A stretch of DNA of 32,433 nt from Anaerolineae bacterium. Its GTDB lineage: Bacteria > Chloroflexota > Anaerolineae > Aggregatilineales > J027. Every line of letters begins with the position of its first letter. The first letter of the stretch is position 1. Made by a program: the position numbers and the translations under genes. Location of the stretch: NCBI GenBank assembly GCA_012031655.1, contig JAAUUD010000007.1, positions 1 through 32,433 of the forward strand, given 5' to 3'. The notes under the pieces are model-generated. The model saw only the letters and a list, made by a program, of their open reading frames with translations. It was not told the DNA's origin and did not search any database. Positions 9,933-16,432 of this stretch are shown in pieces.

Positions 9933-10024
9933 TAGCAAGCATGTTCTAATTTCACAGCAGTGCCATCCCGCAACTTGCGGAGGGGCAGCGCCAACGGTTG
10001 CCAAACTCCGCAACCCGCCCACCC

Positions 10025-10053
10025 GCCGAGCTTGGTGTAACTTTGGGCTCGGC
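10025..10053 (+). promoter_or_regulatory. Leader hairpin before the UvrA-like gene
   Basis: GCCGAGC (10025-10031) pairs perfectly with GCTCGGC (10047-10053) around a 15-nt loop, in the long leader of the UvrA paralog. A GGCC/GGCC mini-stem and TTTT follow (about 10057-10074), so an attenuator arrangement is possible. Antibiotic-resistance ABC proteins are often controlled in this way; here it is inference from layout only. Confidence 0.35.
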
Positions 10054-10117
10054 CTTTGGCCCGCTGGCCGTTTTCGCAGCAAGTTCCTTAACCCAGTCCA
10101 CAGCTAAGGAGGTCGGC

Positions 10118-12354
10118 ATGTCTGCGCAGCCCTTTATTGAAGTCCATGGCGCACGGGAGAACAATCTCAAGAACATTTCGTTGCATATCCCCAAACAAAA
10201 ATCACGGTCTTCACCGGGGGTGTCTGGCTCTGGTAAGTCTTCGCTGGTGTTTGATACCATCGCGGCAGAGGCACAGCGCCAGCTTAACGAGACCTTCACC
10301 GCTTTTGTGCAGGGGTTTCTGCCACACTATGGCCAGCCGGATGTGGATAGCATCGAAAACCTGAACTCGCCTATCATCATCGACCAGAAACGGGTGGGTG
10401 GGGGCTCGCGCTCGACCGTCGGCACCTATACCGACATTGCGGCCTTGCTGCGCTTGCTGTTCTCCCGCATCGGCGAGCCGCATGTGGGCCCCGGTTTTGC
10501 TTTTTCCTTCAACACGCCCCAGGGCATGTGCCCTGAATGTGAGGGCATTGGCAAGACCGTGCAACTGGACATGGACAAATTTCTGGACCGCAGCAAGTCG
10601 CTCAATGCGGGGGCAATCCAGCACCCGGAGTTCAAGGTAGGGAAGTGGTTGTGGAAGAACTACACGCTTGCTGGCTTGTTTGACAACGACAAACCCATCA
10701 ACCAGTACACCGCCGATGAGCTACACGCCCTGCTCTATGGAGCAGATTTAAAAGTGCCGTTTGGCGAGTTCAACACCACCTACGAAGGGCTGATCGAGCG
10801 CTTTACGCGGATGTACATCAAAAAAGATGCGGCGGCGATGTCTGACCGCAACCGCGCCATCTTCGAGGCTTTCACCAATTCGCAGACTTGCCCGCTGTGC
10901 CAGGGGGCCCGGCTCAACCAGGCTGCGCTGAACTGCCGTATTCGGGGGCGTAACATCGCAGCGCTTTCTGACCTGGAAGCCACAGACCTGCTGGTTTTTT
11001 GCAAGGGTTGGATGACGACCCCATCGCGGCCCGCGTAGCCGCCAAGCTCACAGAGCGGGTGGGGCACCTGGTTGATATTGGCCTGGGCTACCTCAGCCTG
11101 AGCCGCGAAACCTCCACGCTTTCCGGGGGGGAGTCTCAGCGGGTGAAGATGATCCGGCACCTGGGCAACAGCCTCACAGAAATGCTCTACATTCTGGATG
11201 AGCCGAGTGTGGGCCTGCATGCCCGCGATGTGGCCCGCTTGAACGCCCTCTTGCAGAAGCTGCGCGATAAGGGCAACACGGTGCTGGTGGTGGAGCACGA
11301 CCCAGACGTGATTGCGGTGGCTGACCATGTGGTGGACATGGGGCCACGTGCAGGCATTCATGGCGGGGAAGTCGTCTTCGAGGGCAGCTATACGGCGCTC
11401 CAGCAGGCCCAAACCCTCACCGGGCAATTTTTGGCGCAGCACCTGCCTGTCAAAACCGAAGTGCGCCAACCCACCGGCCACCTGACCATTCGCAACGCCC
11501 AGCTCCATAACCTGAAGAACATCACCGTCGATATCCCCACCGGGGTGCTGACCGTTGTGACGGGCGTGGCGGGTTCTGGGAAAAGCACGCTAATCAACGA
11601 GGTATTCCTGGAACAACAGCCAGAAGCCATCGTGATCGATCAGTCGCGGGTCACCGCCAACAGCCGTTCGGCGCCCGCCACCTATACCGGCATTATGGAT
11701 GAAATTCGCAAGGTATTTGCCCGCACCAATGGCGTCAGTCCGTCGTTGTTTAGTTTTAACTCCGAGGGGAGCTGCCCCCACTGCAACGGGTTGGGGGTGG
11801 TCTACACCGACCTGGCCTTTATGGAAGGCATCGCCACACCTTGCGAAATCTGCGAGGGCAAGCGCTTTAAGGCTGATGTGCTGGAGTACCATTTGCGTGG
11901 TCAGTGCATCAGTGATGTGCTGGACATGACCGCCGAAGAAGCGCTGGAGTTCTTTACGGAGAAGAAGATCCGCCCGGTGGTGCAGGCCATGAACGAGGTT
12001 GGCCTGAGCTACCTCAAGCTGGGGCAGCCACTCAGCACCCTCTCTGGCGGGGAGGGCCAACGCCTGAAGCTGGCCACGGAGTTACACAAGCAGGGCAGCA
12101 TCTACGTGATGGACGAGCCGACCACTGGCTTGCACCTCTCGGATATTGGCTTGCTGATGGGCATCATCGCGCGGCTGGCAGATGCCCAAAACACGGTTAT
12201 ATTGATTGAGCATCATCTGGATGTCATCCGCCAGGCCGATTGGATCATCGACCTGGGGCCGGAGGGTGGCAGCGCCGGGGGGGAGGTCCTTTTTGAAGGG
12301 CCGCCTGCCGCGCTCCAAGGCTGCGAACTGAGCATCACAGCCCGCTTCATTTAA
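10118..12354 (+). CDS. Short UvrA paralog (drug-resistance type ABC ATPase)
   Basis: After correction a 745-residue protein with two ABC ATPase halves. Seen: first Walker A (TGVSGSGKSS), zinc motifs CPECEGIG and CPLCQGARL, signature LSGGESQRVKM with Walker B ILDEPSVGLH, second Walker A TGVAGSGKST, CPHCNGLG and CEICEGKRF, signature LSGGEGQRLKL and MDEPTTGLH. The UvrB-binding domain of true UvrA is absent: RIGEPH runs straight into GFAFSFNTPQG. Such paralogs (for example DrrC-like proteins) are linked to resistance to DNA-binding drugs, not to UvrABC repair. Indels: missing A at 10197-10201 and extra G at 10216-10220, which compensate and scramble the residues before the P-loop, and a missing T at 10995-11000. 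AAGGAGG lies 5 nt before ATG 10118. Confidence 0.88.
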
Positions 12355-12407: not shown

Positions 12408-12790
12408 AAAGAAGCCATTCTCGGGCAGTGCATTCAATCGCTCCTGGGCCAGACCTCCCCCAATTCCGAGATCATCTTCGTCAACGAGGAGCAAAAGCCG
12501 CTGAAGGGGGCCAGGATTGGCCTGCTGGGCATGGCCTAGGAGCGCGATACGGACGACGTGCGCCAGTCGCCCTCGCTGGAAGTGCAGCCGTTGTTGGCCT
12601 CGCGCGGGGCGCAGGTGACCTTTTGTGATCCTGACGTGGCCAGTGCACGGATGCACAACGGGGAAACGCTGCACAGCGTTGAACTCAGCATCGATTGGCT
12701 GCAAGCCCAAAATTGCGTCGTCATCCTGAAAGATCATCGCGCCTTTAACTACGCGTTGTGGTGCAGAACGCGCGCCTGGTGAAGCTTTAG
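12408..12790 (+). pseudogene. Nucleotide-sugar dehydrogenase C-terminal remnant, possibly chimeric
   Basis: From about 12490 the translation matches the C-terminal domain of UDP-glucose/UDP-ManNAc-type dehydrogenases: KPLKGARIGLLGMA, stop, ERDTDDVRQSPSLEV, LLASRGAQVTFCDPDV, SVELSIDWL, CVVILKDHRAFNY. An in-frame TAG (12537-12539) replaces the Tyr-Lys of the usual GLAYKRD. After FNYA the frame slips near 12758; the other frame gives VVVQNARLVKL and a stop at 12788-12790. The preceding residues, in the same frame (KEAILGQCIQSLLGQTSPN then SEIIFVNE), look like the N-terminus of a family 2 glycosyltransferase, suggesting fusion of two polysaccharide-gene relics. No start or RBS is visible and it abuts a terminator. 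Confidence 0.7.
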
Positions 12791-12872: not shown

Positions 12873-13391
12873 TCAGGCGTTGCGGAAGCGGACGACGCTC
12901 TTTTCGGAGTTCTGCCCGGCGACCACACCAAACTGCCGCAATTGGATTTCGTGGCCTATCAGATCAAAAGTAAGCTGCTGAATCCCTTCGTTGCAGCGCC
13001 GTTGCAGGGTGCGCCGGTCGTAGTGGACCAGCTCCGCCAGGCGGACCATTTCCAGGCCCAGGTCGGCACGGATAAAGCGGTAGTAGAGCAGGCTAAAGTT
13101 CTGCCGGTAGGAGTGTTCCTGAGCGAAATCTGCGATCAGCAGGTTCAGGGTATCGCTCTGGCTTCTGAGGTCCGCATCCCCAAGGGCCACCAACAAACGC
13201 GATGCAAGGGCCTGACGAACCGCATGCAGCCGCGCATAGCCACCCTTGAGGTCCCCGAGATGCTGCCGAACCTGGAGCAGTTCCATCCACACCTGGTCAT
13301 CCGGCAAGGGGCGCGCCTGGCGGATGTGCTCCAGCGCGGCGCGTACATGGCTGGGCTGTAATTCGGGGCCAGGCCCGGTCATCGGTTTCAT
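12873..13391 (-). CDS. HTH-domain protein, probable regulator
   Basis: A 172-residue protein of unknown family. The first 100 residues look helical (HIRQARPLPDDQVWMELLQV). The C-terminal half has LLYYRFIRADLGLEMVRLAE followed by LVHYDRRTLQRRCNEGIQQL, which I read as a helix-turn-helix: the same pattern (LYYR...R.DLGL...LA....V..RTLQRR...GI..L) occurs in regulatory proteins of Chloroflexota, sometimes in front of ATPase modules. No signal peptide or membrane segment is seen. Its start lies 6 nt after the stop of the exported-peptide gene and has no Shine-Dalgarno of its own, which suggests translational coupling. The exact role is not known. Confidence 0.6.
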   Translation of the reverse strand: MKPMTGPGPELQPSHVRAALEHIRQARPLPDDQVWMELLQVRQHLGDLKGGYARLHAVRQALASRLLVALGDADLRSQSDTLNLLIADFAQEHSYRQNFSLLYYRFIRADLGLEMVRLAELVHYDRRTLQRRCNEGIQQLTFDLIGHEIQLRQFGVVAGQNSEKSVVRFRNA

Positions 13392-13397
13392 TGGTGT

Positions 13398-13535
13398 CTA
13401 GCACCCACCGCAGGACTGAACCGGAGCTGTACTGTTGACCCCCGCTTCGGCGTTCGAGGCTCCATAGGCCGGAGCCGCCACCAAAACCAGGGCAATAATC
13501 AGGGCAATTACGGCACGCTTAATACGCTTTGACAT
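13398..13535 (-). CDS. Small exported peptide ending SCGGC, 45 residues
   Basis: A short frame with all marks of a secreted peptide precursor. The N-terminus is MSKRIKRAVIALIIALVLVA: basic, then a strong hydrophobic core. AxA-type cleavage sites follow (after APA, AYG, SNA or AEA), and the end is GVNSTAPVQSCGGC. Cleavage after AEA would leave 14 residues. GGAG lies 8-9 nt before ATG 13535, so the start is well supported. It is cotranscribed with the HTH gene 6 nt downstream and follows the SARP/TPR regulator gene, with a terminator between. A peptide next to a TPR regulator recalls exported-pheromone systems; the two Cys could form a disulfide or thioether, or bind metal. No homologue is known to me; signalling is inference, the exported peptide itself is well supported. 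Confidence 0.7.
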   Translation of the reverse strand: MSKRIKRAVIALIIALVLVAAPAYGASNAEAGVNSTAPVQSCGGC

Positions 13536-13549
13536 GTTACCATCTCCGT

Positions 13550-13566
13550 GGCTATAGCAGATAGCC
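13550..13566 (-). promoter_or_regulatory. Palindrome just upstream of the peptide RBS
   Basis: GGCTAT (13550-13555) and ATAGCC (13561-13566) form a perfect inverted repeat with a 5-nt centre, directly before the GGAG of the exported-peptide gene. It could be an operator for the neighbouring regulators or a 5' UTR hairpin. The minus-strand TATAGC inside it could serve as a -10, but no good -35 is seen. Confidence 0.4.
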
Positions 13567-13640
13567 AGAAGGGTCACATGCCGCGCCCCAGGGACCTCTG
13601 AGGCAAAACAGGGGGGCTACTGAGGCTATTCCAGAAAAGA

Positions 13641-13668
13641 AGCCCCAGCCTGTATGCAGGGCGGGGCT
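13641..13668 (-). terminator. Terminator of the SARP/TPR regulator gene
   Basis: On the minus strand AGCCCC...CCTG, loop CATA, CAGG...GGGGCT forms an interrupted 10-bp stem (13668-13641) followed by TCTTTTCT. It lies about 90 nt past the regulator's stop and separates it from the peptide gene. Confidence 0.65.
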
Positions 13669-13758
13669 AAAAAACGCGCTGCCTCACCGTTCCCCTGCAA
13701 ACGGAGGAGCTGCGGGGCAGCCTTTCAGCGGGTTGAGGACTAAAGAAGCCTGAACTGC

Positions 13759-15618
13759 CTATGGCAAACTCAGCGCTTCATCCAGTTGGACCATCAACTT
13801 CTGGTACCAGGTCTCCGGCAACTGGGGTTCAAGCTCTGGCAGCAGCTCTTGTGTGCTGAGCATCACCGCCTCGAAGCGCGCCTGATACTGGCGGCGCACG
13901 TCCTCCACAAATTCGCTTTCCACCGAGCGCGCAAAGGAGTTGTAAAGGCTCATCAGCTTAAAGCACAGCGCCAGGCGTTGCAGGGGTTGTTGGGTCTCGA
14001 AGAACTGGCGGTAGGTGTTGTCGAAGTCGTCGCCATCGTAATAGTGCGGGAAGTCCGGCGCCACGACGTAGTGCTGGCTGGGTTCGTCATAGGTGCACCA
14101 GTCCCGCACCTGGAGGGCACGCCGAAAGCTGGTCATGACGGTGTGGAAGCGCTCGCGGGCGCGGGCCGGGTCGGTTTCTGGGTAGAGCGCGGCCAGGATT
14201 TCGCCAATCTGGGCGCGGCGTTGCTCCAGCATATAGAGCAGCAATTGCATCCCCATCTGCCCGTAACGGTCCCGCTGCTGGAGCAAGGTGCCATTGGGCA
14301 GGTAAACCCGTGGGCCGCCAAAGGCATACACCCGCACCCCCTGGAGCGCGCCCTGTTCCTTGATGGCGACCTCAAGTTTCTCGCGCGTGTCTGGCGACCA
14401 CCACCCCCCCAGCAGGGGCAGGCTTAGCTGGTATAGGCGGGCCAGGTGGGTGACCTGCCCTTGCAGGAGAGTTTCTTTTTCCAGGATGTGGATGGTCGTT
14501 TGCACGGTTTCCCAGTCCCGGGCGAGCGCGGCTTGCCAGGCCTTGAGCAGACGCGCCTGGCTTAAGCCCAAAAAGCGCCCCTGGGCTTGCCAGCTTTCCA
14601 CCACGCTCACGCCGTAGTCCGCGCGCTGGTCGCCTTTTTGCGTCTCGATGAAGAGCTGCAACAGACCCACTTCCGGGCTCAGGCGGACATCCTGATAAGC
14701 GACGCTTTGTAGCTCTCTGAGCTTGAGCGTGGCCATGCTGAAGTCCTGCCGGAAAGCCGCAGCCCAGCCCGAAAGCAGCAGATGCGCGTACAGGCTGTGC
14801 AGGTGACCCGTGCTGGGCGGGTTCTCGAGTGCGCGCCGCAGCGTGGCCTCGTCCCCAACCCACAGGGCAATCTGGGCGCTGTTCAGGCGCACCTGCTCGC
14901 GCAGGTAGGCCTCTTTGGTGAGCGCTTCAGCATCCAGCAGATAGCCCATGGCTTTTTCAAACTGGCCTTCCTCCGCGCAAACCTCGCTGGCCTGGAGCAA
15001 CACGCGCGCCACAAGGTCCTGGTTGCCCGTAAGGCCGGCGTAATCTTCGGCTTCGCACTGGTGGCGCCAGCCCGCCAGGCGTAGATTTTGCTCAAAAGCG
15101 GTGGCAGCAGCGCGCAGGCAGGCCCGTGTGACATCATAGGCGCGTTCGGCCAGCGGCACTTCGATACGCTGCAAAAAGAGGCGCCGCGCCTGCTCGTAGT
15201 GCTGAAGTGCGGCGGCGGGGTCGTCCTCGCGGGCGGCTTCGCCATGCAAAAACGCGCATTCGGCCCGGTGAACGAGCAGCGTGCTGTTCTCTTGCACGCG
15301 CGCCAGGGCATAGCGCAGGCGGTCCAGGTCCTGCTCCCGCAGGGCCAGTTGGGCCTGCTGGAGGTAGGCCCGCGCCAGAAGCTCTGGTGCATTGGCCCAG
15401 GCTTTTTGGCAGACCTCCAACGGCACCCGTGCGGCTGCGTAGGCGCCCCGGTCCCCCAGGATTTTTGAGGTTTGGTAGGCCACCTCTGGATAGGTGAGGC
15501 GTGCATCGGGCGGCAGGGAGTTCCACGCATTCACCAGTAAATCGTGGGCTTCTCCGCCTGCCAGAAAGAAGTCGCGCGCCTGGTTTTCGAGATCATCCAT
15601 CGAAATTGAGGTGTTCAT
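13759..15618 (-). CDS. SARP-like regulator: TPR array with C-terminal winged helix
   Basis: A 619-residue intact protein. Residues 1 to about 410 are TPR-like helical repeats rich in Ala/Leu (for example LLARAYLQQAQLALREQDLD). From about 427 there is a winged-helix domain of OmpR/SARP type: VRVYAFGGPRVYLPNG, QLLLYMLEQRRAQIGEILAA, LYPETDPARARERFHTVMTS then FRRALQV. A BTAD-like helical end follows. This reverses the usual SARP order, in which the winged helix comes first. It is probably a transcription activator that senses a ligand or peptide through its TPRs. GGGAGG lies 12 nt before ATG 15618. It has its own terminator; the exported-peptide and HTH genes follow on the same strand. Confidence 0.75.
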   Translation of the reverse strand: MNTSISMDDLENQARDFFLAGGEAHDLLVNAWNSLPPDARLTYPEVAYQTSKILGDRGAYAAARVPLEVCQKAWANAPELLARAYLQQAQLALREQDLDRLRYALARVQENSTLLVHRAECAFLHGEAAREDDPAAALQHYEQARRLFLQRIEVPLAERAYDVTRACLRAAATAFEQNLRLAGWRHQCEAEDYAGLTGNQDLVARVLLQASEVCAEEGQFEKAMGYLLDAEALTKEAYLREQVRLNSAQIALWVGDEATLRRALENPPSTGHLHSLYAHLLLSGWAAAFRQDFSMATLKLRELQSVAYQDVRLSPEVGLLQLFIETQKGDQRADYGVSVVESWQAQGRFLGLSQARLLKAWQAALARDWETVQTTIHILEKETLLQGQVTHLARLYQLSLPLLGGWWSPDTREKLEVAIKEQGALQGVRVYAFGGPRVYLPNGTLLQQRDRYGQMGMQLLLYMLEQRRAQIGEILAALYPETDPARARERFHTVMTSFRRALQVRDWCTYDEPSQHYVVAPDFPHYYDGDDFDNTYRQFFETQQPLQRLALCFKLMSLYNSFARSVESEFVEDVRRQYQARFEAVMLSTQELLPELEPQLPETWYQKLMVQLDEALSLP

Positions 15619-15925: not shown

Positions 15926-16231
15926 TTATCGGGTGGCAGGTTCGGTGGCAGCCCGCATCTGATGCACCATGTATTTTTTCACTGGGACGCCGCCAAGCAC
16001 ATGTTCTTCAATAATCTGCGCCAGGGCCTTTTTGTTTGGGCAGCGATACCACACGCCATCGGGATAGACGATCAGGATCGGGCCAATTTTGCAGGCCCCC
16101 AGGCAGCCCACCTGCGAGCGCTTGATGGTCACAGAGGCTTTGCCCAGGAGTTTTTTGGCTTCTTTGGCCAGCTCTTTCCCTTCGCAGTCGCCCCCCTCAC
16201 AGAAAATCAGGTGGTGTGTGTAAGCTTTCAT
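15926..16231 (-). CDS. Thioredoxin-like [2Fe-2S] ferredoxin
   Basis: A protein of about 101 residues with the cluster-binding pattern of thioredoxin-like ferredoxins: HHLIFCEGGDCEGKE near the N-terminus, then VGCLGACKIGPILIVYPDGV and WYRCPN. Four Cys (C-x4-C and C-x3-C) are positioned to hold a [2Fe-2S] cluster. These proteins act as soluble electron carriers or as subunits related to NuoE and hydrogenase HoxE. I chose ATG 16231, because GGGGG lies 4 nt upstream and homology begins at MKAYTHHL; a longer start at 16270 would add 13 unrelated residues. No redox partner gene is adjacent. Confidence 0.8.
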   Translation of the reverse strand: MKAYTHHLIFCEGGDCEGKELAKEAKKLLGKASVTIKRSQVGCLGACKIGPILIVYPDGVWYRCPNKKALAQIIEEHVLGGVPVKKYMVHQMRAATEPATR

Positions 16232-16432
16232 GGAACCCCCAGCGGCACCTTTGCGTGCATAACATGCCAACAGGGTATGCCGAACCGCTGCGGGCGTCTA
16301 TAAACCACGGTCATTAGCGCTTCGTATAAAGTAGAAAAGCAAAGTTTAGTAGATGAGTAGAAGATTAAAACCGTTGGTTAACTTTTGCTGGGGCGGGCTG
16401 TTGAAGCGCCCCAGGCGGGGTTTGGGGCCAGC

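Follow-up and report, generated by a model that had tools for sequence, protein, structure and literature searches.

Peptide signalling through an intracellular TPR regulator has been described as a trait of the Bacillota (PMC10075063, PMC9765709). By the published criteria, a system of the RRNPP type has a receptor of 250-500 amino acids that contains TPRs and adjoins, at a distance of -60 to 400 bp, the gene for a Sec-exported propeptide of 10-100 amino acids, and its mature peptide is re-imported and bound by the receptor (PMC10075063). Tandem or in-precursor repeats are known for Phr propeptides (PMC11343458). The SARP boxes described for SARP regulators consist of repeats 11 or 22 bp apart that lie 8 bp from the -10 element (PMC10936776). 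In the open-access literature, RRNPP and Chloroflexota are found together only in work on a Streptococcus Rgg regulator, and no open-access paper was found to describe SARP-peptide loci of the kind reported here.

The window, meaning the whole 32,433-nucleotide stretch of DNA that was analysed, is an entire contig (C118) of a genome assembly of 3.8 Mb that is 69.5% complete. On its minus strand, three ORFs lie in a row and code for a 619-amino-acid TPR/SARP-type regulator, an exported peptide of 45 codons, and an HTH-type protein of 172 amino acids (Table 1). The peptide gene is separated from the SARP gene by 223 nt, and the ORF for the HTH protein begins 6 nt past the peptide stop codon. RNA folding and a scan allowing mismatches both locate a hairpin at 13668-13641 with 12-nt arms, 8 G-C pairs and the tail TCTTTTCTG. 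Hairpins resembling terminators are present in 11 of 28 such SARP-peptide intergenic regions, compared to 3.6% of shuffled sequences. Because the 223-nt gap holds this hairpin, transcription of the SARP gene is probably separate from that of the peptide gene, which probably shares a transcript with the HTH gene. Thus, the sequence-only reading, which had placed the peptide gene between a SARP/TPR gene and a coupled HTH gene on one strand, holds for order, strand and coupling to the HTH gene, but the SARP gene is likely transcribed apart. No Rfam families were found in the window, and a consensus promoter scan found no sigma-70-like promoter.

Table 1. Features of the SARP-peptide-HTH locus, in positions of the window
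Feature	Position	Strand	Basis
TPR and SARP-type (winged helix and BTAD) regulator, 619 aa	13759..15618	-	ORF, profile comparison, model
Hairpin and T-rich tail resembling an intrinsic terminator, in the gap between the SARP gene and the peptide gene	13632..13668	-	RNA fold and mismatch-tolerant scan
Two GCCTCAG heptamers, weak operator candidate	13598..13626	-	Shuffle P=0.02
GGAG Shine-Dalgarno sequence of the peptide gene	13544..13547	-	Sequence
Exported-peptide gene, 45 codons, SCGGC C-terminus	13398..13535	-	Signal-peptide score versus chance; layout as in large-SARP loci
Probable mature tail GVNSTAPVQSCGGC, if cleavage occurs after AEA	13401..13442	-	Inferred from precursor alignment
All-helical HTH-type protein, 172 aa	12873..13391	-	BLAST and HMM matches; model

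Three other regions of the window drew attention. A UvrA-like gene at 9998-12354 on the plus strand is split into two frames that overlap (9998-11038, 10999-12354) and is perhaps frameshifted. Short plus-strand frames at 12428-12782, convergent with the HTH gene, resemble by eye the remnants of a nucleotide-sugar dehydrogenase C-terminus. Upstream of the SARP gene, a minus-strand ORF at 15926-16270 weakly matches thioredoxin-like [2Fe-2S] ferredoxin (PF01257).

The predicted peptide has the sequence MSKRIKRAVIALIIALVLVAAPAYGASNAEAGVNSTAPVQSCGGC. Its ATG is preceded at 8 nt by GGAG, and its 11-residue core has a mean hydropathy of 3.74. The RBS, basic N-terminus, hydrophobic core, cleavage site and SCGGC end that had been described for this small gene are all confirmed at the coordinates given in Table 1. 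Signal peptides were called with a simple hydropathy-based score, by which this frame is the best in the window. For a chance expectation, 100 sequences simulated from the window with a second-order Markov model (6.5 Mb of strand in all) were searched for frames of 22-90 codons with an RBS, a basic N-terminus and a cleavage site. None of the simulated frames has a core hydropathy of at least 3.5 and three reach at least 3.0; on this simulation, a chance origin of the 45-codon frame is rejected. Codon usage is weakly gene-like (P=0.07). No orthologue of the peptide is detectable in 300 related genomes, where searches with the peptide and with the codon pattern for CGGC-stop matched only non-genes or the signal peptides of other proteins, and no Pfam model scores above its cut-off. 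The case for function therefore rests on comparison with other loci.

The regulator likewise has no Pfam match above cut-off. Residues 23-420 of its AlphaFold model are TPR-like helices, the C-terminal part is poorly modelled, and TPR proteins make up most of the PDB matches at E<=0.001. An NTPase domain is absent as judged from both Pfam and the model. In a profile comparison, the protein aligns with the large SARPs described below at a probability of 98.7% over 327 columns, which span both the TPR and SARP parts. A first scan of genome contigs with the 619-amino-acid protein gave no match. Its relatives are a truncated paralogue in its own genome (C43) and one homologue in another (G002:C29), and neither has an exported peptide downstream because convergent genes follow.

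The HTH protein led to the family. BLAST and HMM matches show its homology to the N-terminal domain of NB-ARC/STAND-type ATPases of ~500-890 amino acids, and among 161 genomes of the order, 62 contain this domain. Its model is all-helical (pLDDT 88) with no confident match in a fold search against the PDB, and a DNA-binding role is putative. The ATPases that carry the domain are mostly large and lack small partners, and an early scan of ~20 of their genes revealed no peptide upstream or downstream. A wider scan of 86 matches to the domain yielded two loci ordered as in the window (SARP, peptide, HTH protein). Specifically, a large SARP at G152:C591 is followed by MLSKRLSLTIRFFVVVPRRVLILTLVLLLALTITTSAQGVTYACGPGTGSSCCPGC, a 99-amino-acid protein and a stand-alone HTH protein, and a large SARP at G056:C26 is followed by an exported peptide ending in DGVPGGVHP and an HTH-ATPase. 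A search with the G152 peptide then identified two more precursors, one ending in CPGC and the other in CPGCG, immediately downstream of SARP genes. Some stand-alone relatives of the window HTH protein adjoin CRISPR arrays and proteins that by eye look like CARF-type CRISPR-associated proteins (L170 1-5501, G121:C9; L175 1-5501, G007:C12). These neighbours suggest a second role for the domain.

The large SARPs of Anaerolineae are ~1,050 amino acids long with the architecture NTPase-TPR-BTAD, as exemplified by the regulator at L105, in which Pfam detects BTAD (2e-19), AAA, TPR, and an NTPase and TPR_MalT region. When the C-terminal part of one such protein was used as a query, ~40 orthologues were separated by a clear score gap from ordinary SARPs. 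An alignment scan of contigs from 85,462 genomes yielded 33 named loci of the Anaerolineae type (including Anaerolineae, Aggregatilineales, and Chloroflexi OLB13 and OLB15), plus others. Peptides were counted at the 32 large-SARP loci with at least 300 nt of downstream sequence, as same-strand ORFs with an RBS no more than 700 nt from the SARP stop codon. An exported ORF of 38-63 codons is present at 26 of these loci, and two more have a peptide beyond 700 nt, which raises the count to 28 of 32. On the opposite strand no exported peptide is found at any of the 32, and in four loci a Sec-type peptide is missing even in the wider scan. The order-level control has no peptide at 22 of 25 SARPs, and the three positives are themselves large SARPs of at least 714 amino acids. 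These three and the Dehalococcoidia loci were initially treated as controls and were reassigned to the positives. Within a 39-locus set, the SARPs of Bacillota and of Trueperaceae/Deinococcales were found to have no downstream peptide. The pairing is thus a feature of the large SARPs and is absent from ordinary short SARPs and from SARPs outside the Chloroflexota.

In Dehalococcoidia, the large SARPs are accompanied by 33-amino-acid precursors ending in AEVIWDL, AEVIWPW or AEVIYPW. The same SARP-EVIWDL arrangement is present at L360 on a contig titled Phycisphaerales, which reflects either misbinning or transfer. At L332, the family operator described below lies 80 nt past the SARP stop codon, and three leaderless ORFs of ~20 amino acids (MQNETIVIRANAGNAAGGSR and variants) come after it in tandem, with no Sec-exported precursor. 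Most loci carry an Os1348-like protein after the peptide, often followed by a response-regulator receiver; the window instead has the HTH protein, homologues of which are present at G152 and G056. From L321 to L353, a conserved ORF of ~100 amino acids with the pattern MDVxPWPxGxGFxGAxxWW follows the peptide and weakly resembles NF038399 of the Os1348 NHLP clan. No NCBIfam model scores above its cut-off for the precursors or the partner protein.

The recurrence of this arrangement shows the regulator and the predicted exported peptide to be a conserved pair. At the family level, the proposal that a SARP/TPR regulator accompanies a small exported peptide in Chloroflexota is thus borne out by 26-28 of 32 loci, by the selection and operator described below, and by the two loci with the order SARP, peptide and HTH protein. 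It does not extend to the two closest homologues of the window SARP. The small frame had been expected to be conserved beside homologous regulators, and this is the case in the wider SARP family but not at C43 or G002:C29.

The family peptides are evolving under purifying selection, as judged from substitution rates. The two closest precursor pairs from distinct genomes have dN/dS values of 0.10 and 0.16, and other values are mostly 0.2-0.55. Among six precursors of the ITSGS type, identity is 82% over the six C-terminal residues compared to 43% elsewhere, and the difference holds for 15 of 15 pairs. Precursor genes are present in tandem as five copies in L291, three in L329 and two in L330, and one precursor in L323 carries DGQAPGGSY three times. 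Predicted tails include GQASGGSGSPLP, GEITSGS and EVIWDL, and some are as short as 6-9 residues (EVIWDL, GEITSGS). The distance between tails correlates with that between SARPs (r=0.55 for the TPR part and 0.42 for the BTAD part), but this was set aside as proof of binding because common descent would produce it. In the precursor alignment, AEA followed by GVNSTAPVQSCGGC in the window lines up with ITEA followed by GPSGGGAYCPGC. On this analogy, the mature window peptide is probably GVNSTAPVQSCGGC, cut after AEA, and its Cys pair may form a disulfide. Cys-pair tails are present in six other precursors (CPGCG, CPGC, CCPGC, CSC, CGMC and GCGC). With its SCGGC end, the window peptide fits this subgroup, and the Cys pair is no hallmark of the family.

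The intergenic regions before the peptide genes share the motif GTAAGCA(C/G)TTTGTTGCAC, followed ~9-10 nt on by TAnnnT; the operator can be written as GGTAAGCASTTTGTTGCAC-N9-TANNNT. At least 13 of 18 positions match in 24 of 27 regions, compared to 0.7% of shuffles, and the A and final T of the -10 element are present in all 27. At L336 (G152), the match is 11/18 and falls below the pass score, though a shifted repeat is visible. With one mismatch allowed, 250 genomes contain 15 occurrences of the pattern, of which 13 lie at SARP-peptide loci, and the reversed pattern does not occur in these genomes. The Dehalococcoidia loci and two further loci have repeats of GGTnAGA or TGTAAGT at 11-bp spacing, with TAnnnT 10 nt further on (shuffle P<=0.004). 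This layout is close to that reported for SARP boxes, and the SARP probably acts on the peptide promoter in the family. In the window, the family operator is missing from the intergenic region, where the best consensus match is 10/18 and TANNNT is not preceded by heptamer repeats at 11-bp spacing. This region does contain the GCCTCAG repeat, 22 bp apart and 62 nt before the peptide start (shuffle P=0.02), with no -10 element at SARP-box spacing. It is possible that the divergent window SARP uses another operator.

In our reading, the window belongs, as a divergent case, to an undescribed family of Chloroflexota loci that couple a TPR-containing SARP activator with a short exported peptide that feeds back on it; we hold this complete reading with moderate confidence. 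That the SARP-peptide family exists is almost certain. That the window belongs to it is likely: it is a probable but divergent member because it shares the TPR-SARP regulator, the position of the peptide gene, the export signal, the Cys-pair tail and the HTH neighbour, and has neither the operator nor the NTPase part. The pairing on one strand, the Sec-type signal peptide, the purifying selection, the tandem copies, the constrained tail and the family operator with its -10 element can all be read from the sequences; a pheromone mechanism for the family is rather probable. In such a mechanism, the SARP would turn on the peptide operon, and the precursor would be exported and then cleaved to yield a short tail that often starts with Gly (GVNSTAPVQSCGGC in the window). 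The tail would build up outside, re-enter the cell or otherwise be sensed, and modulate the SARP via its TPR domain, which would complete a feedback loop. The HTH protein encoded alongside the peptide would act as an accessory regulator or as an output regulator.

The chief rival to a signal, which we consider unlikely, casts the peptide as an output: an exported bacteriocin, a RiPP-like product or a surface peptide that the SARP switches on with no feedback. The SARP-box-like operator points to control of the peptide genes and not to sensing, and AfsR activates afsS in Streptomyces in this manner (PMC10936776). The Cys-rich tails of a subgroup and the protein weakly resembling NHLP/Os1348 that follows the peptide in many loci are also consistent with such a product. 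However, tails of 6-9 residues are short for a bacteriocin, near-identical tandem copies and in-precursor repeats resemble pheromone precursors (PMC11343458), and neither a modification enzyme nor a dedicated exporter was noticed in the short flanks that were read.

Less probable still is a chance neighbourhood in the window, outside the large-SARP family of loci, in which the 45-codon frame, whether it encodes a real small secreted peptide or is no gene at all, happens to sit between a SARP gene and an HTH gene unrelated to it. Such a chance arrangement would account for the two closest SARP homologues without a peptide, the missing family operator, the peptide without an orthologue and the borderline codon usage (P=0.07). 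It is harder to reconcile with a signal-peptide frame that exceeds chance, with spacing and strand as in the family, with homologues of both the SARP and the HTH protein at true SARP-peptide loci, and with a Cys-pair tail like those of six other precursors. A small toxin-antitoxin pair formed by the hydrophobic peptide of 45 amino acids and the HTH protein is very improbable. Although a small hydrophobic product is encoded directly before a putative DNA-binding gene, its basic N-terminus, cleavage sites and hydrophilic tail ending in Cys suit secretion, and the HTH family consists mostly of N-terminal domains of large ATPases without small partners.

If the pheromone reading of the family is correct, large SARPs gain a candidate ligand for their TPR sensor domain; the main text of the paper on the AfsR structure does not contain the word ligand (PMC10936776). 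The conserved unit of regulator, operator and peptide also allows pheromone sequences and DNA sites to be predicted in a phylum that is largely known from uncultured genomes. A broader proposal, for which we see an even chance, is that in at least two classes, Anaerolineae and Dehalococcoidia, STAND/TPR-SARPs serve as cognate receptors of self-induced, lineage-specific, Sec-exported pheromones of 6-15 residues that are independent of RRNPP, with the window as a Cys-paired variant that has a reduced receptor.

The likeness to RRNPP-type systems that had been suggested for the window is not sustained at the level of family. As in the RRNPP(A) systems of Bacillota (Rap-Phr, PlcR-PapR, NprR, Rgg, PrgX and AimR), a TPR regulator adjoins a short Sec-exported propeptide, here of 33-63 amino acids, with a short mature tail. 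TPRs are indicated by the fold match of the window protein, which lies below Pfam cut-offs, and by Pfam in the large SARP, and the window propeptide of 45 amino acids, called by the hydropathy-based score, lies within the published distance at 223 nt. The receptors, of 619 amino acids in the window and ~1,050 in the family, exceed the RRNPP size range, and because they differ in both family and size, the SARP-peptide loci lie outside RRNPP by family. Specifically, the SARP/STAND regulators of these loci carry a winged helix and BTAD at the C-terminus, belong to another phylum, and are associated with a SARP-box-like operator before the peptide gene. The AfsR-AfsS system of Streptomyces similarly has a single regulator that unites SARP, NTPase and TPR parts, and SARP-binding repeats beside the -10 element of a small gene (PMC10936776). 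In the loci described here, however, the domain order is reversed, with the SARP part C-terminal, and the small products have signal peptides and variable short tails, with no sign of kinship to AfsS. The NTPase and TPR_MalT region that Pfam detects in the large regulators recalls the STAND activators of the MalT/LAL type, but the effector is BTAD/SARP rather than a LuxR-type HTH, and a peptide gene adjoins.
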